Assembly: GCF_003610235.1 (NCBI RefSeq)
Contig: NZ_RAPR01000001.1
Span: forward strand, 992,001 to 1,056,000
DNA length: 64,000 nucleotides
From: Catellatospora citrea
Lineage (GTDB): Bacteria; Actinomycetota; Actinomycetes; Mycobacteriales; Micromonosporaceae
Reading direction: 5' to 3'
Shown here: positions 1 to 13,751 of the stretch, piece by piece
Position numbering within the stretch: position 1 is the first letter of the stretch
Layout of the letters: each line of letters opens with the position of its first letter
Made by a program: the position numbers and the translations under genes
The notes under the pieces: generated by a model
Told to the model about the DNA's origin: nothing
What the model saw: the letters and a program-made list of their open reading frames with translations, nothing else
Database searches by the model: none

Positions 1-561
1 CAGTGCGGCGTCGATCTTCTCGGGGCGGTAGACGTTGCCGTGCGCCATGCGGCGGCGTAGCGCCTCCGGCGTCATGTCGATCAGCTCGACCTGCTCGGCG
101 CGGCGTACGACCTCGTCGGGCACCGTCTCGCGCTGCGGCACGCCCGTGATGGTCTGCACCACGTCGTTGAGCGACTCCAGGTGCTGGATGTTCAGCGTGG
201 ACAGCACGTGGATGCCGGCGTCGAGCAGCTCGTTGATGTCCTGCCAGCGTTTGGCGTTGCGGCAGCCGGGCACGTTGGTGTGCGCGAGCTCGTCGACCAG
301 GACGACCTCGGGGCGGCGGGCGAGGATGGCGTCGACGTCCATCTCGGTGAAGGTCGCGCCGCGGTACTCGATGGTGCGCCGGTCGATCAACTCCAGGTCG
401 CCGATCATCTCCAGGGTGTGCTGGCGCCCGTGGGTCTCCACGAAGCCGACGGCGACATCGGTGCCGCGGTCACGGCGGCGCTGCGCCTCTTCGAGCATGG
501 CGTACGTCTTGCCGACGCCGGGCGCGGCGCCGAGGTAGATCCGCAGCTGGCCTCGCGACAT
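1..561 (-). CDS. kdpD: KdpD osmosensitive K+ channel sensor histidine kinase, N-terminal part (runs off the window)
   Basis: This is the cytoplasmic N-domain of KdpD, the membrane histidine kinase that senses K+ limitation and controls the Kdp K+ pump through the response regulator KdpE. Only the first 187 codons lie in the window. Residues 11-19 are the Walker A motif GAAPGVGKT, and residues 87-96 are the Walker B-like VLVDELAHTN; both are hallmarks of the KdpD family ATP-binding domain. The following stretch (KRWQDINELLDAGIHV, then TLNIQHLESLNDVV) also matches the family. The ATG at 561 is preceded by a purine-rich AGGGGACAGGA. The membrane and kinase domains, and probably kdpE, lie to the left of the window. 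The identification is firm; intactness cannot be judged. Confidence 0.95.
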   Translation of the reverse strand, partial: MSRGQLRIYLGAAPGVGKTYAMLEEAQRRRDRGTDVAVGFVETHGRQHTLEMIGDLELIDRRTIEYRGATFTEMDVDAILARRPEVVLVDELAHTNVPGCRNAKRWQDINELLDAGIHVLSTLNIQHLESLNDVVQTITGVPQRETVPDEVVRRAEQVELIDMTPEALRRRMAHGNVYRPEKIDAAL

Positions 562-589
562 TCGCTGGTCCTGTCCCCTCGCTTGCCGG

Positions 590-622
590 GGAGGGGCTCC
601 TTCACCGTGAAGGAGCCCCTCC
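590..622 (-). promoter_or_regulatory. GC-rich hairpin in the leader upstream of kdpD
   Basis: There is a perfect 15-bp stem (590-604 with 608-622) around a 3-base loop, centred about 45 bases before the kdpD start. No T-run follows on the minus strand, so it is not a classical intrinsic terminator for the gene at 810-1364. It lies between a promoter-like element (730-783) and kdpD, so it may shape or attenuate the kdpD leader transcript. Confidence 0.5.
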
Positions 623-729
623 ATCCCTGTCACCAAGCCGACCAGGTTGGCAGTCACCGTCGTTCCGCTTCCGTTCGCGGGCTGACCCGGAGTAATCCCA
701 TCCCAGCTCCGGTCGGCGGGTAAGTGCTC

Positions 730-783
730 TTGACGGCATCGCTACGCCCGTCCCGGCTTTCTTGACGGCCCTTTGACGGGCGT
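730..783 (-). promoter_or_regulatory. Repeated promoter/operator-like element, copy 1 (upstream of kdpD)
   Basis: On the minus strand this reads CGTCAA, then CGTCAAGA 11 bp later, then CGTAGCGAT 21 bp further, then CGTCAA 32 bp after the second hexamer. Two other intergenic regions (3421-3467 and 4514-4563) carry the same arrangement with the same 32-bp spacing. TAGCGAT could be a -10 hexamer lying 16 bp from GTCAAG. Direct hexamers at 11-bp steps are the usual binding pattern of OmpR/PhoB-type response regulators. The regulator is not identified. Confidence 0.55.
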
Positions 784-809
784 GTGAGCCGCGCCTCCGG
801 GCCGGGCCG

Positions 810-1364
810 TCAGTCGCGGGCGCCGCCGTGGGCAGGCTCGCCGAGCGCCGCGAGCGCCTGCTCGGGATCGTCGACGCTGACGGTGAGGGTCCGGCCCGTG
901 TCCAGCAGCAGCTGCAGCGCCGGCCCGGTGCGCACCACGTGACAGGCGCGCAGAGGTGGCGCCAGCCACCAGAACAGGTCCCGCCAACTCGACTCGGCCT
1001 GCACGATCCGCACCGCCTGGATCGAGCCCGTGGCGATGTCGGCCGACAGCATCGGCACCGGCCAGCCGCGCAGCCGCACCCGGTGCCGGTCGATGCGCAG
1101 CACCAGCCGCCAGGTGGCGACGGCGCGGCCGGTGAGTGCCGCAGCGGCGTACAGGGCGAGCACGGCGGCGGTGATCGCGTACGCGCTGCCCAACACGCCC
1201 GCGCGAGGGGCGACCCCGTCGACGAGAGCCACCGTGGCGAGGCAGAGCCCGGCCGCGATCTCCAGCATGACCACCGAACGACGCCGGCCGCCGGCTCCGC
1301 CCTGCCATGTCCGGTCAGCCTGCCCGGCCGCGTGCTGGGGCGCCGCAGAGGACACGCCGTGCAC
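810..1364 (-). CDS. Small integral membrane protein of unknown function
   Basis: The predicted protein has 184 residues from a GTG at 1364, preceded by GCAGGGAG. About 35 polar residues are followed by two hydrophobic segments (roughly residues 33-75), then a soluble C-terminal half with strand-like stretches such as LQLLLDTGRTLTVSVDD, resembling a membrane-anchored PH-like domain. An alternative ATG start at 1268 would remove the polar N-terminus. It begins three bases after the stop of the gene at 1368-1799, so the two are probably translated from one mRNA. I do not recognise a named family. Its location between a DUF4118-like protein and kdpD hints at a role with the Kdp system, but this is inference only. 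Confidence 0.7.
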   Translation of the reverse strand: MHGVSSAAPQHAAGQADRTWQGGAGGRRRSVVMLEIAAGLCLATVALVDGVAPRAGVLGSAYAITAAVLALYAAAALTGRAVATWRLVLRIDRHRVRLRGWPVPMLSADIATGSIQAVRIVQAESSWRDLFWWLAPPLRACHVVRTGPALQLLLDTGRTLTVSVDDPEQALAALGEPAHGGARD

Positions 1365-1367
1365 GGC

Positions 1368-1799
1368 TCAGACTCCCTGCCGGCTCGCGGTGATCAGCTC
1401 GGTGACGACAGGGTCGGCGTCCGGCGTACGCGCCGGCCGTGCGACGGCTTGACGTATCCACCGCTGTCCCAGCCCCACGCCGACGGCGACGCCGAACACG
1501 GTCAGGTTGAACAGCGTGGTGACGCCGTCCCAGGACAGCTCCCCGAACCGGTTCACCAGGAAGCCGTCGAACAGCAGGAAGCCGAGCAGGCCGGTGAGCA
1601 GGCTCGCGCGGGTGTCGGCGACGACGGCGGCGAACACCCCGGTCACCGCCGCGGCCAGCATCAGCCGCCCGGGCTCCTCGGTGACGAAGGCGCCGGCCAG
1701 GATCGTCGAGACGCACACCACGACGGCGCCCAGCGCGAGGTTGATCCCGAACGGGGTCGCCTGGGTTTCGTCGGCTGGACGCGGTTGCTGAAGACGCAT
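1368..1799 (-). CDS. DUF4118-like four-helix membrane protein (KdpD transmembrane-domain relative)
   Basis: The protein has 143 residues. The ATG at 1799 follows a strong AGGAGGG ribosome site. Residues about 18-110 form four closely spaced hydrophobic helices, and the loop around LLTGLLGFLLFDGF resembles the membrane domain of KdpD (DUF4118), where a short cytoplasmic loop joins helix pairs. There is no kinase domain; the C-terminus is a short soluble tail. It is followed immediately by the small membrane protein at 810-1364 and then by kdpD, so a modulatory role next to the KdpD sensor is plausible. The family call is from pattern resemblance only. Confidence 0.65.
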   Translation of the reverse strand: MRLQQPRPADETQATPFGINLALGAVVVCVSTILAGAFVTEEPGRLMLAAAVTGVFAAVVADTRASLLTGLLGFLLFDGFLVNRFGELSWDGVTTLFNLTVFGVAVGVGLGQRWIRQAVARPARTPDADPVVTELITASRQGV

Positions 1800-1959
1800 G
1801 ACACCCTCCTCACGAGGGGATGGAAGGAGCTGGGAACGGCCAGGTGCAGGCCGTGTCCTGGTCGGGTCGGGTACGTCGCTGAGCTGCACCGGGCATGGTG
1901 GGCCGGCTGTCGTCCGATGGCGGCAGGCGGCCCGCACGGTGACGCCTGCCGCCCCGGGT

Positions 1960-3273
1960 TCACGCCTCGTCGCGTCGCAGGACGTCGTCGAGGGTCTCCC
2001 GGCGTACCAGCACCCGCGCCTGCCCGTCGCGGACCGCGATCAGCGGCGGCCGGCCGACCAGGTCGTAGTTGGACGCGAGCGGGAAGTGGTAGGCCCCGCA
2101 GCCCGGCACCGCGATCAGGTCGCCGGGCCGCAGGTCGTCGGGCAGCGGCTCGTCGCGCACGAGCACGTCACCGGCTTCGTCGTGGCGGCCGACCACGGTA
2201 GTCGGCACGGTCGCCGCCGTGCTGGGCCGGCCGACCAGGACCGCGGTGTAACGGGCGCCGTACAGGGCCGGGCGGGGGTTGTCGCTCAGTCCGCCGTCGA
2301 CCGCGACCAGCTGGTGGCCCTGCTCATGGCGGACGGCCAGCACGCGGTAGAGCGCCACACCGGCGCGGGCGACGATGGCCCGTCCGGGGGTGACCGACAG
2401 CCGCGGCGGCTGCACCGACGCCCGGTCGCAGGCGAGGGCGAGAACCCGGCGCATCCGGGCGGCGAACGGGTCGACGGGCAGCGTGGTCTCCTGACCGGTG
2501 TGCGCCACGGCGAACCCGCCGCCGAGGTTGATCTCCTCGATGTGCACGCCGTGGCTGCGGCGCAGGTCCGCGCAGGCGGCCACGAGCTGGGTGATGGCGT
2601 GTTCGTAGCCGCCGAACTGGGCCAGCTGCGAACCGAGGTAGACGTCGAGGCCGACGAGGTCCAGCAGCGGGTTCGAGGTGATCTCCTCGACGAGTTCGGC
2701 CAGTTCCGCGCCGTCGGTCGGCACGCCGAACCGGTCCTGGCTGGGGCAGGCGGGCAGCCCGGCCTTGGCGAAGCCGAGCTGGGCGGGCAGCAGCCGCAGC
2801 ATGACCTTCTGCCGCTGCGGCCGCCGGGTGCACGTCAGGCGGGCGATGTCGGCGGCGGACTCGATGACGACCCGGCCCGCGCCGCGGGCGTCGACGTCAC
2901 CGTGCACGACCACGCGCTCCGCGGGGAAGCCCGCGGCCAGGGCCAGTTGCCACTGGCCGGTGGAGTACACGGCCAGGCCCATGCCGGCCTCGTCGATCCA
3001 CCGCAGCAGGCCCCGGCTGAGCAAGGCCTTCGCGGCGTAGACGACCTGTGCGGGACCGAAGGCCGCGCAGTAGGCCGCGCAGCGTTCCCGGACATCGGCC
3101 TCGTCCAGGACGTAGGCGGGCGTGCCGTACTCCTGCTCGATCTCCATCAGCGGCACGCCGCCGACGCTGATGCCGCCGCGACCGTGTTCGGTGGTCAGCG
3201 GCCACAGCTCCCGGTCGAGCCCGCGGGGCGGCAGGGAGGAGCGCAGTGACGGGATGACGTCGGCGAGGGTCAT
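1960..3273 (-). CDS. Diaminopimelate/ornithine decarboxylase-like PLP protein (fold type III) with substituted active-site residues
   Basis: The protein has 437 residues; the ATG at 3273 follows GGGAGGGG. It is colinear with LysA: YAAKAL with the PLP lysine at K82, GGGF at 251-254, VDGGLSDNPRPALYGARY from 325, and GAYHFPLASNYD near 394. Several residues usual for LysA are changed. The EPGR glutamate, which contacts the PLP ring nitrogen, is Thr295 (TPGR). The CESGD cysteine that crosses the dimer interface is Asp365 (RHDEAGD). HIGSQ is YLGSQ (Y212), and HGN is HGD at 124-126. The PLP lysine and overall fold are kept, so it probably binds PLP, but diaminopimelate decarboxylation is doubtful. 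It stands alone behind element copy 2 (3421-3467). A different amino-acid decarboxylase or racemase is possible. Confidence 0.8.
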   Translation of the reverse strand: MTLADVIPSLRSSLPPRGLDRELWPLTTEHGRGGISVGGVPLMEIEQEYGTPAYVLDEADVRERCAAYCAAFGPAQVVYAAKALLSRGLLRWIDEAGMGLAVYSTGQWQLALAAGFPAERVVVHGDVDARGAGRVVIESAADIARLTCTRRPQRQKVMLRLLPAQLGFAKAGLPACPSQDRFGVPTDGAELAELVEEITSNPLLDLVGLDVYLGSQLAQFGGYEHAITQLVAACADLRRSHGVHIEEINLGGGFAVAHTGQETTLPVDPFAARMRRVLALACDRASVQPPRLSVTPGRAIVARAGVALYRVLAVRHEQGHQLVAVDGGLSDNPRPALYGARYTAVLVGRPSTAATVPTTVVGRHDEAGDVLVRDEPLPDDLRPGDLIAVPGCGAYHFPLASNYDLVGRPPLIAVRDGQARVLVRRETLDDVLRRDEA

Positions 3274-3420
3274 CGCGACCCCTCCCGCAGCAGTCCTGTC
3301 ATGGCCGGGAGGGTGGCAACGGGCTGCCGGGCCGCGATATCGGGAGGCTCCGGCGAGGATGAGGATGCGGTGGGTGTCACGCCTCCATGACACACGTGCC
3401 CTCGGCCACCGGCCAGGGCC

Positions 3421-3467
3421 TTGACGTGATCACTACGGCGCCGGGCGGTTTCTTGACGCCCTGACGG
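3421..3467 (-). promoter_or_regulatory. Repeated promoter/operator-like element, copy 2 (upstream of the LysA-like gene)
   Basis: On the minus strand this reads CGTCAG, then CGTCAAGA 8 bp later (11 bp in the other copies), then CGTAGTGAT 21 bp on, then CGTCAA at 32 bp. It ends about 150 bases before the ATG at 3273. The intervals from the second hexamer onward are identical to copies 1 and 3, whereas the bases between are not conserved, which favours a binding site over recent duplication. Confidence 0.55.
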
Positions 3468-3475
3468 CGGCGGGT

Positions 3476-4309
3476 TCATGCCGCCCTCGCCGCGATGGCC
3501 CGGTCCAGGCCGACCAGGGCCGTGCTGAGCCGCCACAGCCGGTCGAGGGCCTTGTCGTCATGGACCAGCGGGTTCGGGACGCCGATCTGCAACCCGGTGT
3601 AGAAGGCCCCGGTGCGCACGCGGATCCGCGCCGAGCACAGCTGCAGCACCGCATCGGCGCCGGCCGTGGCCGGTTGCCCGATGCCGCCGTACGACGGCAG
3701 CAAGGCGGTGTCGGTGCTGCCGGGGTCCACGCTGATCGCGGTGAGCTGCGGTTCCCGCTGGGCCAGCGCGCGGGAGAACATCGTCAGGGCCAGTTTCGAC
3801 TGCGCGTAGGCGACCTGGGGGCGGTAGGCGAGCTGCCGTTGCGGGTCGGTCCAGTCGAGGTCGGTGGCGCGGTGCGTCGCCGACGACACCGAGATCACCC
3901 GGCCGTCGGCGGCCCGCAGCCGCTCGCGCAGCAGCCGGCTCAGCAGGTAGTGCGCCAGGTAGTTGACCTGCAGCGTCAGCTCGTTGCCGTCCGTGCTCCG
4001 GCACCGCGCGGCCGGCGCCGCCATGGCCGCGTTGTTGACCAGCACGTCGAGGCGGCGGTGCCGGGCGTGGACGTGTTCGGCCAGGGCGACCACCTCGCCC
4101 AGGCGGGCGAAGTCGGCCACCGCGCCGTCGAGGTAACGCACGTCGGCCCCGCGGTGCTGCAGCCGGGTCAACGCCTGCCGCACCGGCAGCTCGTGCGGGC
4201 CGTGAATGATCACAGCGGTGCCGAGCTGGCTCAGCCGCAGCGCGGTCTCGAATCCGATGCCGCTGGTAGCGCCGGTGATGAGGACGACGGGTGTGTCGGT
4301 GTGGCTCAT
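3476..4309 (-). CDS. Short-chain dehydrogenase/reductase (SDR family)
   Basis: This is a 277-residue NAD(P)-dependent oxidoreductase of the SDR superfamily. The cofactor motif TGATSGIG is at residues 12-19, NNAA at 92-95, the catalytic serine pair SVSS at 140-143, and YxxxK at Y168/K172, so the catalytic set is complete. The C-terminal half (VDPGSTDTALLP onward) resembles the retinol-dehydrogenase/WW-oxidoreductase-like SDR branch, but the substrate cannot be inferred. The ATG at 4309 was chosen because it precedes the Rossmann motif by the usual short distance; upstream in-frame codons encode low-complexity residues. It has its own promoter-like element (4514-4563) and a ~200-base leader. 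Confidence 0.88.
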   Translation of the reverse strand: MSHTDTPVVLITGATSGIGFETALRLSQLGTAVIIHGPHELPVRQALTRLQHRGADVRYLDGAVADFARLGEVVALAEHVHARHRRLDVLVNNAAMAAPAARCRSTDGNELTLQVNYLAHYLLSRLLRERLRAADGRVISVSSATHRATDLDWTDPQRQLAYRPQVAYAQSKLALTMFSRALAQREPQLTAISVDPGSTDTALLPSYGGIGQPATAGADAVLQLCSARIRVRTGAFYTGLQIGVPNPLVHDDKALDRLWRLSTALVGLDRAIAARAA

Positions 4310-4513
4310 TTCTTCTTTCCGATGGTGAACGGCCGGCCGGTGCGGCCTGGACGCCGCCCGGTCCGCGCCGGGGGGCGGGACCGAGGACGAGACGATCGCC
4401 GGAAAGACCGCGGGCGCCACGCCGACGGCATCGACGGACTCCACGGGGCTCCTTCAGCAGCGTGCCAGGACGCCTAGCAGCAGACACCGTGCGCCGCGGC
4501 GCCACCAGACGGC

Positions 4514-4563
4514 TTGACGGGATCCGTACGCACGCCGCCGCAGTCTTGACGCCGCGGTGACGG
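4514..4563 (-). promoter_or_regulatory. Repeated promoter/operator-like element, copy 3 (upstream of the SDR gene)
   Basis: On the minus strand this reads CGTCAC, CGTCAAGA 11 bp on, CGTACGGAT 21 bp on and CGTCAA at 32 bp. Spacing matches copy 1 exactly. It lies 205-255 bases upstream of the SDR start and downstream of the membrane-protein gene ending at 4629. Confidence 0.55.
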
Positions 4564-4628
4564 CCGGGTGCGCTGCGCCACACGGGCCGCCTGTCCCGGC
4601 ATCTCGGCCGCCAAGGACCTTCCGAGCG

Positions 4629-5354
4629 TCAGCCGGTGCGCAGCTCCGCGGTCGGTTGCGCCCGTCGCCACATCGCCACTGCGAACGTCGCGGCGCTGAT
4701 CGCCAGGGCCGACAGCGCGTACGCGATGACGACAAGCACGAACGTGGCCGGCGTGCCCACTCCGAACAGGTCGCGAATCCGGTCGAACAGCGCGGTGTTG
4801 ATCGTGGGGATGGTGAACCACGACACGACCCCGGCCAGTGGACTGGCGAGCAGGGCCACCGGCCGCCGGCCACGCACCGTCAACCATGCTGCGGCCAGCA
4901 GGGTCGACGACACCGCGTACAGCAGCTCGGGTGCTATGTCGACACCGGACCAGTTGAGCCGTTGCCTGGCTGCCATCCCGACGACTTCGACCATTGTCGA
5001 GCCGGCCACCAGGCCCGCAGCCAGCGACACCGCCACCGGATCGGCGGCCGCGCGCTGCCCCCAGCCGACGGCCAGAGCGCCGGCCAGCAGGAACGGCAGA
5101 GTCAACAGGAACCAGGAGCCGGCGGCGCTGGTGAGCGCATCGCCGACGGTAGGTGCATGCTGCGGGGCCGGGTCCGGTAGCAGCCGCGACACGCTGGGTT
5201 CGACGACTGCGGCAACGCCGGCCATGACGAGCAACCCCGGCCACAGGATCGCGTGAACGCGGGCGGTGCCGCCCGCAACAGGACCTGGCCGCCCGGCATC
5301 GACATCTGTCGCCAACCGCGCACCCTCTTCATCCGAACAGCGGTCCCGGGACAT
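4629..5354 (-). CDS. Multi-pass membrane protein, function unknown
   Basis: The protein has 241 residues with an ATG at 5354. After a ~30-residue polar N-terminus there are about six hydrophobic segments (roughly 33-55, 76-98, 107-125, 142-160, 168-185, 205-227), giving an integral membrane protein. I see no catalytic motif and no family I can name. It is followed by the intergenic region holding element copy 3, so it is probably not in one operon with the SDR gene. It lies downstream of ynfA on the same strand with a 42-base gap. Confidence 0.65.
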   Translation of the reverse strand: MSRDRCSDEEGARLATDVDAGRPGPVAGGTARVHAILWPGLLVMAGVAAVVEPSVSRLLPDPAPQHAPTVGDALTSAAGSWFLLTLPFLLAGALAVGWGQRAAADPVAVSLAAGLVAGSTMVEVVGMAARQRLNWSGVDIAPELLYAVSSTLLAAAWLTVRGRRPVALLASPLAGVVSWFTIPTINTALFDRIRDLFGVGTPATFVLVVIAYALSALAISAATFAVAMWRRAQPTAELRTG

Positions 5355-5396
5355 GCTCGCATCCGACCGCCGTCACCGCCGCCCCGCCGGTGGCAG

Positions 5397-5735
5397 TCAA
5401 CCGGCGGCACGCGGGGCGTACATGATGACCGCGACGCCGACCAGGCAGATCACCGCGCCGATCACGTCGTAGCGGTCCGGCCGGAACTTGTCGACGACCA
5501 TGCCCCAGGCCAGCGACCCGGCGACGAAGACTCCGCCATAGGCGGCAAGGATCCGGCCGAAGTTCGCATCGGGCTGGAACGTCGCCACGAACCCGTACGC
5601 GCCCAGGGCGATGACGCCTGCGGCGATCCACCACAGGCCGCGGTGCTCGCGCCAGCCCTGCCACACCAGCCACGCCCCGCCGATCTCCAGCAGCGCGGCC
5701 AGGACGAACAGGACGACAGAGCGGGCGATCGTCAT
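5397..5735 (-). CDS. ynfA: YnfA/UPF0060 family four-helix membrane protein
   Basis: This is a small SMR-fold-like membrane protein of 112 residues, the usual length of the family. The [19 protein letters not shown] stretch near the N-terminus, the [17 protein letters not shown] segment around residues 64-80, and the terminal [19 protein letters not shown] match YnfA closely. Family members are placed near multidrug-efflux SMR proteins, but their physiological role is poorly defined. The start is the ATG at 5735. Confidence 0.9.
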
Positions 5736-5835
5736 GATGGCAGCCTAGCCATGCTCACGTCTCCTGCGAGCAGGAGCAGGCGCCGGTTTCCGAGCCCTGC
5801 GAAGAGCTGGTGCCTGCCTGCGCTGTGAGCTGCGG

Positions 5836-7326
5836 TCAGGCCACGTCTACGAACACGGGGTTGGTGTAGAACCACAGGTCGCGCCACGGGTCGGCGTCCC
5901 CTGTCGGATCTTGCCGGGGCTCGATCGAGTCGCGCGCGCTGACATTGCCGTCCGTGCCGCGCAGCCTGAGGTAGAACGGCTGCCGGACGTCGCCGAAGCG
6001 GTGCCGCAACGCCACCGTGCCGCTGCGGTCGCCGACGTCGAACGAGGCGACGACCCGCGTCTGCGGCGCGGTGCGCCGGTCCGGCTCGGTCGGCCCGGTG
6101 ACCGGACCCGCGATGAGGTCGACGCGGCGCAGCCGAGGTCGGTCGCCGTTGGCGTTGTCACGCGAGGCGAGCGTGACCGCGATGTCCACATCGACGCCGT
6201 CACCGCGGACGGCGGTGGCCACCTCGCCGAAGGTCGCTCCCGCCGGGCCTGCCGCCACCTCGACGGCGTCGACGAGGTGGCCGTGGTCGACCCAGACGCG
6301 GCCGTCGCGCAGCGCCCGCATCACCGCGAGCGCGCCGCTGTCGGTGACCCCGACGTGGGTGCGGCTGTACTGGCCGGGCCAGAACCCGCCCGCCGGGCCC
6401 GGAGACGGGTCGGGCACCGGGTCAGGGTAGATCCCGTCGGCACCGGGTGCTCCGCCGCTGCGCCAGCGCTCGCCGTAGACCTTGTGCGCGTCCGAGCTGG
6501 CGGTGATCCACCACGGGCGTCCCTCGGCGAGCATCGCGTCCCACATCCCGCCGACGGTGGCGGTCATCCAGTCGAACCCGCCGTAGGTGCGGTAGGCCTC
6601 GTCCGGGTAGCCGGGGTAGGAGGTGCGGAACGGCCCCCGTCCGTATCCGCCGCGGTCGCCGCCCACTCCCCCACGGTCGGCGGGAATGGCGTTGGCCTGA
6701 CCACCGGGAGCCCCTTCCATGCCGATGACGATGGGGCCCGCGTCGCGCAGGGCCCGCAGTTCCGCAGGTCCGTAGGTGCCGGCGCGGCTGGGATGGTTGA
6801 GGACGCACAACGCCATCGGCGCCAGGCCGGCACGGACCTGAGCGGCGAGCCAGCTCAGCGCGCGGAGGGCTTCGGCCTGCCCGGCCGCGCCGGAGCCGAT
6901 GTCATGGAAGCCGGTGTCGAAGCGGGCTTCGAAGTCGGCGAGCAGGCTCGCCTCGTGCGGGCCGGGTGGGGTGAAGACGGTGGCGTGTTCGCCTGCCGGC
7001 ACGCGCCACTCGATGCCCTGGAACAGGTGCATGCCGGGGTTGGCGGCACGGGCACGGCGCAGGTCCGCCAGGGACCGGTCCAGGCCGTGGCGCTGGTGCA
7101 CCGGGCCCGGGTGGTCGGTGACGACCAGCCAGCCGAGCCCGTACGCGGCCGCTTTGTCGACGTGCTGCTCGATGCGGTACGGGGCGTCGGGGCTGCCGCT
7201 GTACTTGGTGTGCACATGGTGGTCACCGGCGGTCCACCGCAGTGCCCGTCGCGGAGCCGCCGCGCCCGCCGCCAATGGGGTCAGGCCCGCCGCGGCGGCG
7301 CACGCCAGCAGCGACCGGCGGGACAT
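5836..7326 (-). CDS. Exported PHP-domain metal-dependent phosphoesterase-like protein
   Basis: The start at 7326 gives a Tat-like leader (MSRRSLLACAAAAGLTPLAAG) and about 496 residues; an upstream GTG at 7362 would add 12 residues. The mature protein opens with GDHHVHTKYSGS, the first PHP motif (HxH), followed by LVVTDH (motif II). SSDAHKVYGERW near residue 300 supplies a later metal-binding histidine. PHP domains bind two or three metals and hydrolyse phosphoesters. The C-terminal ~130 residues are beta-rich and look like the accessory domain found in secreted PHP proteins. It probably acts outside the membrane. The substrate is unknown. Confidence 0.8.
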   Translation of the reverse strand: MSRRSLLACAAAAGLTPLAAGAAAPRRALRWTAGDHHVHTKYSGSPDAPYRIEQHVDKAAAYGLGWLVVTDHPGPVHQRHGLDRSLADLRRARAANPGMHLFQGIEWRVPAGEHATVFTPPGPHEASLLADFEARFDTGFHDIGSGAAGQAEALRALSWLAAQVRAGLAPMALCVLNHPSRAGTYGPAELRALRDAGPIVIGMEGAPGGQANAIPADRGGVGGDRGGYGRGPFRTSYPGYPDEAYRTYGGFDWMTATVGGMWDAMLAEGRPWWITASSDAHKVYGERWRSGGAPGADGIYPDPVPDPSPGPAGGFWPGQYSRTHVGVTDSGALAVMRALRDGRVWVDHGHLVDAVEVAAGPAGATFGEVATAVRGDGVDVDIAVTLASRDNANGDRPRLRRVDLIAGPVTGPTEPDRRTAPQTRVVASFDVGDRSGTVALRHRFGDVRQPFYLRLRGTDGNVSARDSIEPRQDPTGDADPWRDLWFYTNPVFVDVA

Positions 7327-7450
7327 TCCGGCAGGCCGGCGACGGTTGCACTGGTCGATCACGCCTATGCATACCCCGGCCCTGGTCGTCGGGCAGTACG
7401 GCTCGCCGACGCCGGATCGAAACTGCCCCGAGGACCCGGAGCCGCAGCTC

Positions 7451-8149
7451 TCAGCCGCCGTAGACCGCCTCGATCTCCAGTTCGTAGTCGACGCCCTTCT
7501 TCTTGAACCAGGTCAACGGGTTCTGCGCGACGCCGTCGACGTGCACCTCCAGGTGCAGGTGGGTGCCGAAGGAGTAGCCGGTGTTGCCCAGCAGCGCGAT
7601 CACGTCGCCGGCGTTGACCGGTTGTCCGGTCTTGACCAGGACCTTGCTGGAGTGGCCGTACAGGGTCTGCACTCCGTCGCCGTGGTCGATGATGACCGAG
7701 TTGCCGTAGCCGCCGTTCCAGCCGGCCTGCACCACCGTGCCGGCGCGCACCGCCGCGTACGGCGTGCCCTCGGGCAGCCCGGCCAGGTCCAGGCCCTGAT
7801 GCAGCCTGCCCCAGCGCATCCCGAACCGGGAGGTCAGGTTGTAGTTGCGCAGCGGCAGCACCCACGCGTCCGGGGCCTGGTTGATCGAGGTGCTCATCTG
7901 CCGGTGGTCACGATTGGCGCGCTCGCCTGACGCGGTGCGGTCGGTCTCCTCTCCGGGCACCAGGGCAGCGAGGGTGTTCGGATCGTCCTTGGCGTCGTCG
8001 ATGGTCGCTCCGGCGCCGAAGGCGACGACGCCCGCGCCCGCCATGGCGGTTGCCAGGATTCCGGCGTAGCGGCGGCGAGAGGGGACCGACACGCGGCGAC
8101 GGCCTTGGTAGCGGTCACCTTCGCGGGACACGTCCGGGCGGTACTGCAC
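7451..8149 (-). CDS. M23-family peptidoglycan endopeptidase (LytM/LysM-type metallopeptidase), membrane-anchored or secreted
   Basis: The protein has 232 residues. A basic N-terminus precedes one hydrophobic segment (about 30-50), an anchor or signal. The M23 catalytic domain occupies about 95-215, with HQGLD giving zinc ligands H117 and D121, and HLHLEV giving H197 and H199. These four residues complete the active site, so a cell-wall peptide cross-link hydrolase is expected. The GTG at 8149 is used; an internal GTG about 20 codons later would keep the anchor. It is divergent from the membrane protein at 8423, sharing a 273-base intergenic region. I looked there for a c-di-AMP riboswitch, common before such genes, and did not see one. 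Confidence 0.85.
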   Translation of the reverse strand: MQYRPDVSREGDRYQGRRRVSVPSRRRYAGILATAMAGAGVVAFGAGATIDDAKDDPNTLAALVPGEETDRTASGERANRDHRQMSTSINQAPDAWVLPLRNYNLTSRFGMRWGRLHQGLDLAGLPEGTPYAAVRAGTVVQAGWNGGYGNSVIIDHGDGVQTLYGHSSKVLVKTGQPVNAGDVIALLGNTGYSFGTHLHLEVHVDGVAQNPLTWFKKKGVDYELEIEAVYGG

Positions 8150-11267: not shown

Positions 11268-11423
11268 CTCACCGACAGTACATCATCGGCTGAACAGTAG
11301 TCGCGGAGTCGACGGGGACCACTGCCGAGGGAGGAGTACGTGCCGACCACGTCCCACCAGCCCGCGCCCGGTCAAGGGGGTGCGCGCCGTCGATCCGGCT
11401 GCACCGCCCTGTCCGCTGCGGGT

Positions 11424-12338
11424 CTATGACGCAGCGGGTGATGCAGGCAGGTCGAGCAGGACGAGTTGTGCGGTCTGGTCGAACGCGCGGACGCGGGCGG
11501 TCTCCCTTGTACCGAGCCACACCAGTCCCCATTCGAGGGGCGCGGCGTCGTGGATGGGGACGTAGGCGATGTCGGGGCGAGCGTAGAACCGCGTCGCCCG
11601 GCCCCCTTCGGGGTAGACGCCCTTCCCCGCGCCGACGAGCGCGAGCATCCCCACGAACGTGTCGGCGCCCGGTATGTGCTGGATGGGCCGACCGCTCGGG
11701 GTGCGTTTCGGGGAGTGGAATTCGTCCCAGCCGTCCGGGATGGCGCCGGGGTTCTGCAACACCTGGACGTCTGCGAGGTCTTCCAGGGACACCGACGCGC
11801 GGCGGGCGAAGGGGTGTGTTGACGACACCGCGAGCACCTTTGGCTCGGTGAACAGGACAGGCCCGCCGGCGAGGTCGGGGTGGTCGGCGGGCATGCGGAT
11901 CAGTTCCATGTCCACCTGGTCGGTCTGCATCGCTGCGAGCCCGTTGTTGAGCTGCAGTTCTACGATCTGCACGTCGCAATCGGGGTGCTGGCGGCAGAAC
12001 GCGTCGGTCACCGCGTGCAGGACTTGGGCCGAGTCGGATCCGAAGTAGCCGACCCGCAGGACGCCGGTGACACCGCGGCCCGCGGCGATGGCGTTCCGGA
12101 AGCTTCGTAGGACCTGTTCGTAGGCCGGTTGCAGGTCGTCGCGCAGTTGCCTGCCGATCGGAGTGAGCGTGACCCTGCGGCTGGTGCGGTCGAACAGCGA
12201 CGCCCCGATGCCTCGCTCCAGCTTCCTGATCGTCTGACTGATCCGGGTGGTGGAGACGCGCAGCCGCTCGGCGGTCCGGCCGAAGTGCAGCTCCTCGGCC
12301 AGCGTCAAGAATGCCTCGATCTCGTGCCGCTCCGGCAT
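11424..12338 (-). CDS. LysR-family transcriptional regulator
   Basis: The protein is 304 residues from the ATG at 12338 (MPERHEIEAFLTLAEELHFG), the normal position for the LysR winged-helix domain. Residues 5-62 contain the HTH (FGRTAERLRVSTTRISQTIR), followed by a linker helix and a two-lobed substrate-binding domain (VLRVGYFGSDSAQ onward). Upstream in-frame codons to 12392 would add 18 unlike residues. It is divergent from the esterase gene at 12582 with about 240 bases between, so it probably controls that gene. The effector is unknown. Confidence 0.9.
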   Translation of the reverse strand: MPERHEIEAFLTLAEELHFGRTAERLRVSTTRISQTIRKLERGIGASLFDRTSRRVTLTPIGRQLRDDLQPAYEQVLRSFRNAIAAGRGVTGVLRVGYFGSDSAQVLHAVTDAFCRQHPDCDVQIVELQLNNGLAAMQTDQVDMELIRMPADHPDLAGGPVLFTEPKVLAVSSTHPFARRASVSLEDLADVQVLQNPGAIPDGWDEFHSPKRTPSGRPIQHIPGADTFVGMLALVGAGKGVYPEGGRATRFYARPDIAYVPIHDAAPLEWGLVWLGTRETARVRAFDQTAQLVLLDLPASPAAS

Positions 12339-12581
12339 CCGCCACACCCCCGCATCGTGAACTTCAGCTTCATGATCGTCGCACAGGTCCACGTTGATCG
12401 ACGACGGGGTCTCGTAGGAGTGTGGAGGTGTTCACGCACTGCGCTGCGGGCCGAGGCCCCATCGGCTGCGGCGCAGGGCGCGCATGACATCGACGGCGGG
12501 GATCGCGTGGGGGATCACCGAGCCCCGCCGCCCTGCTTGAACGATCGGGCAATGCCCGCAACTGCCGTCTTTGGAGGTTCC

Positions 12582-13751
12582 ATGCCCGTCGGTTATGTGT
12601 TCACGGTGGCCTGCGTCGCCGTGGGCACCCTGTTCGCGCTGGCGCCGGTGCGGCGGCCGCAGCCGCTCGCCACCGTGAGCTACTACTTCGGCCTGGCAGT
12701 GAACGAGCTGCCGTTCTTCGCGGCCATCTGGTGGCTGGGAGCCTCGACATCACTGGCGTTCGCCCAGGGCGACATCGACTCGGCGGGCGGCTGGGCGGCC
12801 GTCACGCTGGCCGCCGCGACCATACCCGGACTCGCTGTCGTCGCCCGTCGCGCGCTGGGCGACAGGGCCAGGATCGAGCTCGCCATGACCGAGGGACTGG
12901 GCGAGGGATGGCGTGCCGCCATCGACGCCGATCTCGCCGCGGGACTGCGGCGGCGCCTCCCGCTCGCCCGCGTCCTGTTCCTGCCCATCCTCAAACGACG
13001 CCCAGACGTCCGGCGCGTAGCCAACCTCACCTACGGCGACGCGGGCCGCCGCAACCAGCTCGACCTCTACCACCACCGCACACGGCCGGCCGGCGCGCCC
13101 ATCATGATCCACATGCACGGAGGCCACTACTCCGGGGGCCACAAGAACAGCCAGTCGCTTCCGCTGCTCTACCGGCTCGCCGGCCACGGCTGGGTGTGCA
13201 TCAGCGCCAACTACCGGCTACGACCCGAGGCACAGCATCCGGACCACCTGATCGACCTCAAGAAGGTCATCGCCTGGGCGCGCGAGCATGCCCATGAGTA
13301 CGGGGCCGATCCGACCACGGTGTTCGTCGGGGGCAGCTCGGCCGGCGGGCACATGGCAGCACTGGCCGCACTCACCCCGAACGACCCCGCGTTCCAGCCG
13401 GGCTTCGAGCACGCCGACACCTCCGTCAGCGCCGCCATCTGCCTGAACGCCTGGTACCGCGCGTACTTCGGCCAGGGGCCCGAGTCCTCGCCGGAGTCGC
13501 ACATCGCGCCCGACGCACCACCCTTCTTCCTAGCCCACGGCGACAAGGACACGCTGGTGCCCGTGGCGCACGCCCGGCACTTCGCCGACCAGCTGCGCCG
13601 GATATCGGCCGCCCCTGTCGTCTACGCCGAGCTGAAAGGCGGACACCACGCCTTCGACCTGTACCACTCGCTCCGCTTCGAAGCGGTCATCGACGCGATC
13701 GAGGCATTCGCCGCCCGCGTCAGGTCACGGGAAAGGACACTCCAGCCCTGA
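12582..13751 (+). CDS. Membrane-anchored alpha/beta-hydrolase (HSL-like esterase/lipase, LipM-like)
   Basis: The protein has 389 residues. The ATG at 12582 is preceded by GGAGG. The N-terminal ~95 residues hold two to three hydrophobic segments, followed by the catalytic domain. HMHGGHYSGG near 160 is the HGG oxyanion motif, GGSSAGGH near 250 carries the nucleophile in GxSxG, HGDKDTLVP supplies the acid, and the histidine lies in GGHHAF near 355. The triad is complete. This arrangement of membrane helices and an HSL-type carboxylesterase resembles mycobacterial LipM. It probably hydrolyses short or medium acyl esters at the membrane. It is divergent from a LysR regulator. Confidence 0.85.
   Translation: MPVGYVFTVACVAVGTLFALAPVRRPQPLATVSYYFGLAVNELPFFAAIWWLGASTSLAFAQGDIDSAGGWAAVTLAAATIPGLAVVARRALGDRARIELAMTEGLGEGWRAAIDADLAAGLRRRLPLARVLFLPILKRRPDVRRVANLTYGDAGRRNQLDLYHHRTRPAGAPIMIHMHGGHYSGGHKNSQSLPLLYRLAGHGWVCISANYRLRPEAQHPDHLIDLKKVIAWAREHAHEYGADPTTVFVGGSSAGGHMAALAALTPNDPAFQPGFEHADTSVSAAICLNAWYRAYFGQGPESSPESHIAPDAPPFFLAHGDKDTLVPVAHARHFADQLRRISAAPVVYAELKGGHHAFDLYHSLRFEAVIDAIEAFAARVRSRERTLQP

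Follow-up and report, generated by a model that had tools for sequence, protein, structure and literature searches.

A 64,000-nucleotide stretch of the genome of Catellatospora citrea, a member of the Micromonosporaceae (assembly GCF_003610235.1, contig NZ_RAPR01000001.1, positions 992,001 to 1,056,000; hereafter the window) contains three copies of a phased direct-repeat element, or box, which precede a second kdpD gene, a gene for a paralog of diaminopimelate decarboxylase (LysA2), and a gene for an SDR oxidoreductase. The three elements are very probably operators for the response regulator KdpE within a potassium regulon that would include LysA2, the second kdpD, and the SDR gene. The larger finding, as drawn from sequence comparison, is a LysA paralog that appears to belong to the potassium regulon in several actinomycete families and whose catalytic centre is altered in the Micromonosporaceae. 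This suggests a potassium regulon that is not confined to transport but includes a LysA paralog, and through it a connection of K+ supply with lysine and with the cell-wall precursor diaminopimelate. LysA2 would then be a traceable transition from an enzyme to an altered enzyme with one regulator throughout.

Architecture of the element

The pattern CGTCAAGA-N13-CGTANNGATNNCGTCAA, with 21 fixed letters, occurs exactly at positions 730-767, 3421-3458, and 4514-4551 of the window, all on the minus strand, compared with a mean of 0.00 exact matches in 100 dinucleotide-shuffled windows. Allowing up to 3 mismatches yields no copies in the window beyond these 3. A sequence-only reading of this DNA had described three minus-strand copies with fixed spacing, which is accurate, and the genome-wide search on both strands that it proposed returned 4 exact matches in 9.33 Mb, plus 3 more at 2-3 mismatches. 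Only 3e-7 exact genome matches are expected from the base composition of the window, and a reversed control pattern has 0 matches across the same 9.33-Mb genome. The fourth exact copy (C1:1066228) precedes kdpFABC, lying 308 bp 5' of kdpA with a kdpF-like reading frame, recognized by eye, in between. All 3 window copies are intergenic by our own gene calls.

Aligned kdp sites resolve the element into 4 half-sites, CGTCAA or CGTAnnGA, at 0, 11, 32, and 43 bp. This 11/21/11 phasing is consistent with two KdpE-type sites, each a pair of half-sites. As had been described, the upstream half-site of copies 1 and 3 lies at -11, whereas that of copy 2 is shifted or degenerate. Just 5-8 of the 17 non-motif positions are identical between copies. 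Constraint thus acts on the motif, and none of the three blocks is a recent duplicate of another, in agreement with the earlier view. A recent duplication is rejected on this spacer identity, even though the leader of copy 1 is shared with kdpFABC. The CGTAnnGAT block had been placed where a -10 box would be. In Nonomuraea (L010; L and G numbers are our own handles for loci and genomes), half-site 1 is CGTATGGAT, which is CGTAnnGAT-like as half-site 3 is, and half-site 1 of the C. citrea kdpFABC element is CGTCAA. Either form can thus occupy half-site 1, depending on the genus, which makes CGTAnnGAT a variant of the half-site. On this interchange, and on the match of half-sites 3 and 4 to a mapped KdpE site, its assignment as a -10 box is rejected; the block is predicted to be half of the second binding site.

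Association of the element with kdp genes

An exact-pattern scan of a species-genome collection found 23 matching stretches outside the C. citrea genome, and a downstream gene could be assigned in 19 of them (the remaining 4 are L008, L013, L021, and L028). Fifteen of the 23 lead into kdp(F)ABC, with L011 and L027 counted separately although they are scaffolds of a single strain; box and operon are separated by a DUF4118-like gene in L017 and, by eye, also in L020 and L026. Two more lead into kdpD or a kdpD-remnant/kdpE (L009, L019), one (L015) precedes a KdpD-sensor-like (DUF4118-like) gene where the contig ends, and one (L023) precedes LysA2.

Within the genus, the strict pattern stands before the kdp operon with 0-2 mismatches in 9 of 10 Catellatospora relatives, which are all those with a kdpA match; the tenth, G016, has no match to kdpA. 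A looser four-block pattern matches in 11/11 genomes of the genus, but 3 control matches occur in 2 of them. Among 300 Micromonosporaceae genomes, the pattern is found at up to 3 mismatches in 122 (a control match was seen in two rows) but kdpA in 227, and many kdp loci are thus overlooked by the strict pattern. The scores given below are those of a matrix trained on 19 kdpFABC sites only, for which 1 of 3.84 million positions of triplet-shuffled window sequence reached a score of 18. At 17 kdpA loci from 12 genomes of other families, this matrix scores at least 14 somewhere in 15, the best match lying outside the kdpA leader for a few of the 17, and it stays below 14 at L177 and L186.

Boxes are also found at some other loci. 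Two members of the genus have one about 220 bp before a CorA-like gene, C. citrea itself (L224, G000:C1:69311; 35.4) and G087 (L223; 32.0). Two further C. citrea boxes (L225 and L226, G000:C1:6095876 and 7857260), scoring 32.8 and 34.3, have neighbours without an evident K+ link. The box at L209 (G016:C67:227788; 28.5) lies 41 bp before a gene that by eye resembles a KimA-type K+ transporter, and G016, the genome without a kdpA match, encodes a KdpE homolog (57%) about 3.4 kb from it. In G125 (L208/L074), a box scoring 43.7 lies at the start of a PNPOx-domain frame, upstream of a divergent gene that is kup-like by eye.

KdpE as the candidate regulator

KdpE is encoded beside kdpFABC in C. citrea (G000:C1:1060163-1060861), and a KdpE homolog is present in 21/21 genomes checked. 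In Mycobacterium smegmatis, KdpE binds CCGTAAAGAAACCATCAAGGCC at the kdpFABC promoter (PMC5401905). This site, upstream of kdpFABC, is like the element in having CGTAAAG/CATCAAG half-sites 11 bp apart, and it matches 12 of the 15 fixed letters of half-sites 3 and 4 in the kdp consensus, a result equalled by 9 of 200,000 shuffles. The M. smegmatis site is one 22-bp unit in that text, whereas Catellatospora has two units 32 bp apart, which also stand before LysA2, kdpD, and the SDR gene. The same text gives no such KdpE motif for M. tuberculosis. KdpE of Escherichia coli recognizes two 6-bp repeats with a 5-bp gap, and its site differs from the element in being AT-rich (TTTATA/TTTACA) and a single pair (PMC3264566). 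Predicted control of the element by KdpE is well supported by the kdp association, the M. smegmatis site, and the presence of KdpE in all genomes checked. The earlier suggestion that a single response regulator, KdpE being a candidate, recognizes these OmpR-type direct repeats fits this evidence; on the whole, that reading is a correct observation with a good guess at the regulator and one wrong detail, the -10 box.

Some observations speak against KdpE operators of this form. When the whole matrix is slid over the M. smegmatis site, the best placement is at half-site 2 (16.1; 4/5000 shuffles score as high) and not at a pair of half-sites. For M. smegmatis a single 22-bp site was mapped instead of two, and no binding of KdpE was seen at the kdpDE promoter (PMC5401905). 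Many of the Micromonosporaceae genomes with kdpA also lack the pattern at 3 mismatches, as the counts above show.

The box could instead be owned by a different regulator of the OmpR/PhoB family, such as PhoP or MtrA, with kdp as one of several targets. This would fit the 11-bp direct repeats, which are common to the family, and the C. citrea boxes before the CorA gene and the two loci without evident K+ link, but the match to the M. smegmatis KdpE site as reported, the strong kdp association, and the presence in G016, which has no kdpA match, of a box before the KimA-like gene, with a KdpE homolog near, make it very unlikely. It is highly improbable that the blocks are -35/-10 promoter elements of an alternative sigma factor, given the interchange of CGTAnnGAT and CGTCAA at half-site 1 between genera and the 11/21/11 phasing, although CGTA-type -10 motifs do exist for extracytoplasmic function (ECF) sigma factors.

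From the element, its phasing, its conservation, and the genes associated with it, which are read directly from the sequence, we infer binding by KdpE, the trigger, and the sign of regulation. Two KdpE dimers would lie side by side on one helix face at each element. At low K+, KdpD would phosphorylate KdpE, whose gene lies with kdpFABC some 68 kb from the window locus. Phosphorylated KdpE would bind the elements, activating kdpFABC and, in the window, the SDR gene, the second kdpD, and LysA2, the last together with the DUF4118-like gene that follows it.

A LysA paralog tied to kdp

LysA2 is 42-44% identical to the housekeeping LysA (LysA1) of the genus, and close orthologs (89-91%) are intact in 3/11 Catellatospora genomes, C. 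citrea included. An ortholog (E up to 1e-105) is found in 20 of the 300 Micromonosporaceae genomes, in 8 genera, and the kdp-trained matrix scores at least 26 before 17 of these 20 genes. Sixteen of the boxes lie no more than 700 bp upstream, on the coding strand; the 17th (L127, 32.6) belongs to a broken gene copy and falls outside the automatic upstream window because this LysA2 lacks its N-terminus. None of the 11 housekeeping LysA loci of the genus has a box (matrix maximum 4.7).

A class-wide search for LysA2 gave a match in 23/296 genomes, including C. citrea. Loci were obtained for 19 of the other 22 (3 had none), and a tree puts 12 of them with LysA2 and 6 with LysA1, L149 being outside the tree. 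The 12 genomes with a LysA2-like gene are from other families, and a separate, stronger LysA is present in 8/8 of those searched. Phased half-sites are found upstream of 10 of the 12 genes (16-20 of 20 points; 0/60 shuffles each), as opposed to 0/8 LysA1 of other families, 0/7 LysA1 of the genus, and 0/7 other LysA (maximum 14). LysA2 lies at most 17 kb from kdpA in 6 of the 12 genomes. At L189-L191 it follows kdp genes at about 1.3-2.1 kb, and in L130, from the Micromonosporaceae, it directly follows kdpB-C-D-E. In an unrooted tree of 53 LysA proteins, one branch (100/100) parts 20 LysA1-type from 33 LysA2/LysA3-type rows, and the 19 Micromonosporaceae LysA2 proteins form one group (100/100). 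LysA2 belongs to an old clade of LysA paralogs, one that is linked to kdp across several families of actinomycetes. The predicted control of LysA2 by KdpE is supported, and an altered LysA would thus belong to the potassium regulon in the Micromonosporaceae. Among the matches listed in a literature search that left most subscription papers outside it, no report of a KdpE-LysA link or of an actinomycete KdpE regulon was found.

Not all of the data favour this interpretation. In G100 and G091 the LysA2 copy is deleted or broken, and G133 holds a 28-residue remnant, near the kdp box. A strong box is missing before 3 of the 20 Micromonosporaceae genes (L130, 9.6; L131, 7.5; L132, 13.5). Outside the family, L136 and L141 have no phased half-sites, one of the four half-sites is weak in L140, L143, L144, and L146, and the 20-point score was defined once some of the scored sites were known. 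LysA2 and kdpA are on different contigs in 5 of the 12 genomes and 3.7 Mb apart in G398. Because some of these genomes are near relatives, the counts exceed the number of independent events.

Altered catalytic residues in Micromonosporaceae LysA2

The roles of the catalytic Cys, the stacking His, the Glu of the EPGR motif, and the Schiff-base Lys are known from work on LysA and ornithine decarboxylase. The 12 LysA2 proteins outside the Micromonosporaceae retain the usual catalytic residues, while Cys, His, and Glu are replaced in 19/19 aligned Micromonosporaceae LysA2 proteins, which come from 7 genera. The Cys motif KHCEAGD becomes RHDEAGD, RHNDADD, RHGEGGD, and similar sequences, the His motif HIGSQ becomes YLGSQ and others, and EPGR becomes T/A/SPGR. 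The window protein has Asp at the catalytic Cys of the CESGD motif, TPGR for EPGR, and YLGS for HxGS. The Schiff-base Lys is retained in 18/19, the window protein included, and is lost in L126; in L128-L132 the substrate Arg/Tyr stretch is lost. The description of this protein in the sequence-only reading as a pyridoxal 5'-phosphate (PLP) enzyme needs qualifying, several catalytic residues being lost.

LysA2 is predicted to form a fold-type III barrel and a beta domain (mean pLDDT 83), and the model superposes on solved actinobacterial LysA (1hkv/1hkw, 5x7m) with TM scores of 0.88-0.89 and 34-36% identity over the fold alignment. Those enzymes have the catalytic Cys, stacking His, and EPGR Glu that are gone from the window protein. 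dN/dS is 0.12-0.18 in five close LysA2 pairs and 0.10 and 0.21 in two LysA1 pairs; the close LysA2 pairs are under purifying selection. A maintained protein on the LysA fold with key catalytic residues replaced is not to be filed as a diaminopimelate decarboxylase. Since the decarboxylase residues are lost and selection still acts, Micromonosporaceae LysA2 probably uses this fold for a different job, acting either as an altered PLP enzyme or as a non-catalytic LysA partner.

Could the Micromonosporaceae protein nevertheless be an ordinary second diaminopimelate decarboxylase? The fold, the Schiff-base Lys in 18/19, and a TIGR01048 score of 289 against a cut-off of 297.9 would allow it, but replacement of all three residues in every protein, with the further loss of Lys in L126 and of the Arg/Tyr stretch in L128-L132, makes it unlikely. 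That the gene is decaying and its box a leftover is quite unlikely. The deleted, broken, or remnant copies in G100, G091, and G133 are of the kind that decay would leave, yet the five intact pairs have low dN/dS, the same three positions are replaced in 19/19 proteins of 7 genera, and the box stands before 17/20.

A third LysA is present in two mycobacterium-like genomes (an inferred label; L198, with LysA at 11329-12702, and also L168/L169). Here the Schiff-base Lys is replaced by Arg, His by Gln, and EPGR by QPGR, and Cys is kept, the loss of Lys having occurred on a line of its own. This gene is about 9 kb from another kdpABC in G467, and the copy in G365 lies off the kdpA contigs.

Possible roles of LysA2 in potassium starvation

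In Bacillus subtilis, positively charged amino acids partly substitute for potassium (PMC5573677). Ancestrally, LysA2 probably supplied lysine as a cationic stand-in for K+, and where LysA2 is intact a KdpE-driven second LysA making lysine would amount to K+ substitution. For the Micromonosporaceae form, one option is that it acts as a partner that spoils or tunes LysA1, LysA active sites being formed between subunits. Antizyme inhibitor, a eukaryotic, non-catalytic, regulatory homolog of a fold III decarboxylase, may be likened to LysA2 in this, by role alone. Another option is ligand sensing, and a third is changed chemistry. Judging from the titles of their PDB entries, the DokD C387S/C387A forms (9cpz, 9nq5) are laboratory variants of a fold-type III decarboxylase that, like LysA2, lack the Cys, and the title of 9cpz lists pyridoxamine 5'-phosphate (PMP) and aldehyde as ligands. 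We tentatively propose, as a possibility somewhat short of even, that several actinomycete families keep a KdpE-controlled second LysA for K+ starvation and that the Micromonosporaceae form, a conserved but non-canonical LysA, at low K+ pairs or competes with LysA1, redirecting diaminopimelate and lysine, or carries out a new reaction that gives a K+-substituting cation.

The second kdpD, the SDR gene, and neighbouring features

The window KdpD has KdpD, Usp, DUF4118, HisKA, and HATPase domains and so is a full kinase. A kdpD of this type sits inside the kdpFABC operon in the relatives L072, L075, L076, and L078, and the reading frame that starts at the kdpF relic (Table 1) continues in frame into kdpD through the palindrome (window 591-669). 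No remnants of kdpA, kdpB, or kdpC were found in 18 kb around the window kdpD. Because of the kdpD type and the 40-bp relic, the locus looks like a kdp locus that has lost kdpFABC, and the kdpF relic resembles a scar. The earlier assignment of copy 1 to a kdpD promoter is right in that the box precedes kdpD, and needs correction in that box and leader are of kdpFABC type.

No SDR ortholog at E up to 1e-60 was found in the 10 Catellatospora relatives. Among the 300 genomes searched, with the best 8 candidates scored per genome, 3 others have matches at this threshold, with 46-49% identity. Conserved membership of the SDR gene in the regulon is thus not supported, the absence from the genus counting against it, and it is the gene's own box in the window genome that would make it a member. 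Of the three-gene control proposed earlier, the LysA-like gene is backed by comparison across genomes and kdpD by its kdpFABC-type box and leader; for the SDR gene there is its own box.

Table 1. Features of the window around the three elements (matrix score, score of the kdp-trained matrix)
Feature	Position	Strand	Matrix score	Remarks
kdpD, N-terminal part	1..561	minus		858 aa, extends left beyond the window; no kdpE adjoining
Strong palindrome	591..622	none		Separates kdpD from the kdpF relic; folding energy of 570-650, -44.1 kcal/mol
kdpF start-region relic	630..669	minus		40 bp at 95% identity with the C. citrea kdpFABC leader
Copy 1	730..778	minus	65.6	kdpFABC-type box; half-site 5' ends 778, 767, 746, 735; 168 bp before kdpD ATG
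184-aa open reading frame	810..1364	minus		Unmatched in Pfam and NCBIfam; lies between copy 1 and the DUF4118-like gene
DUF4118-like protein	1368..1799	minus		143 aa; Pfam match below cut-off, E 0.0027
LysA2	1960..3273	minus		Diaminopimelate decarboxylase-fold protein without catalytic Cys, stacking His, EPGR Glu
Copy 2	3421..3469	minus	36.8	Half-site 1 degenerate; 147 bp before LysA2 ATG
SDR oxidoreductase	3476..4309	minus		Own perfect box (copy 3)
Copy 3	4514..4562	minus	42.9	204 bp before SDR ATG

A riboswitch or attenuator was considered and rejected, as an Rfam search of window positions 1-8000 gave only a below-cut-off mir-612 match, which falls on the palindrome at 571-650. The DUF4118-like protein of the window resembles the membrane segment of KdpD, and its homologs adjoin boxes and kdp in other genomes. 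As a stand-alone protein it recurs behind or beside candidate KdpE boxes in L015, L017, L127, and L129. At two LysA2 loci (L119:5726-6058 and L130:5812-6216), an open reading frame for a lone AsnC/Lrp ligand-binding domain lies between the box or kdpE and LysA2.

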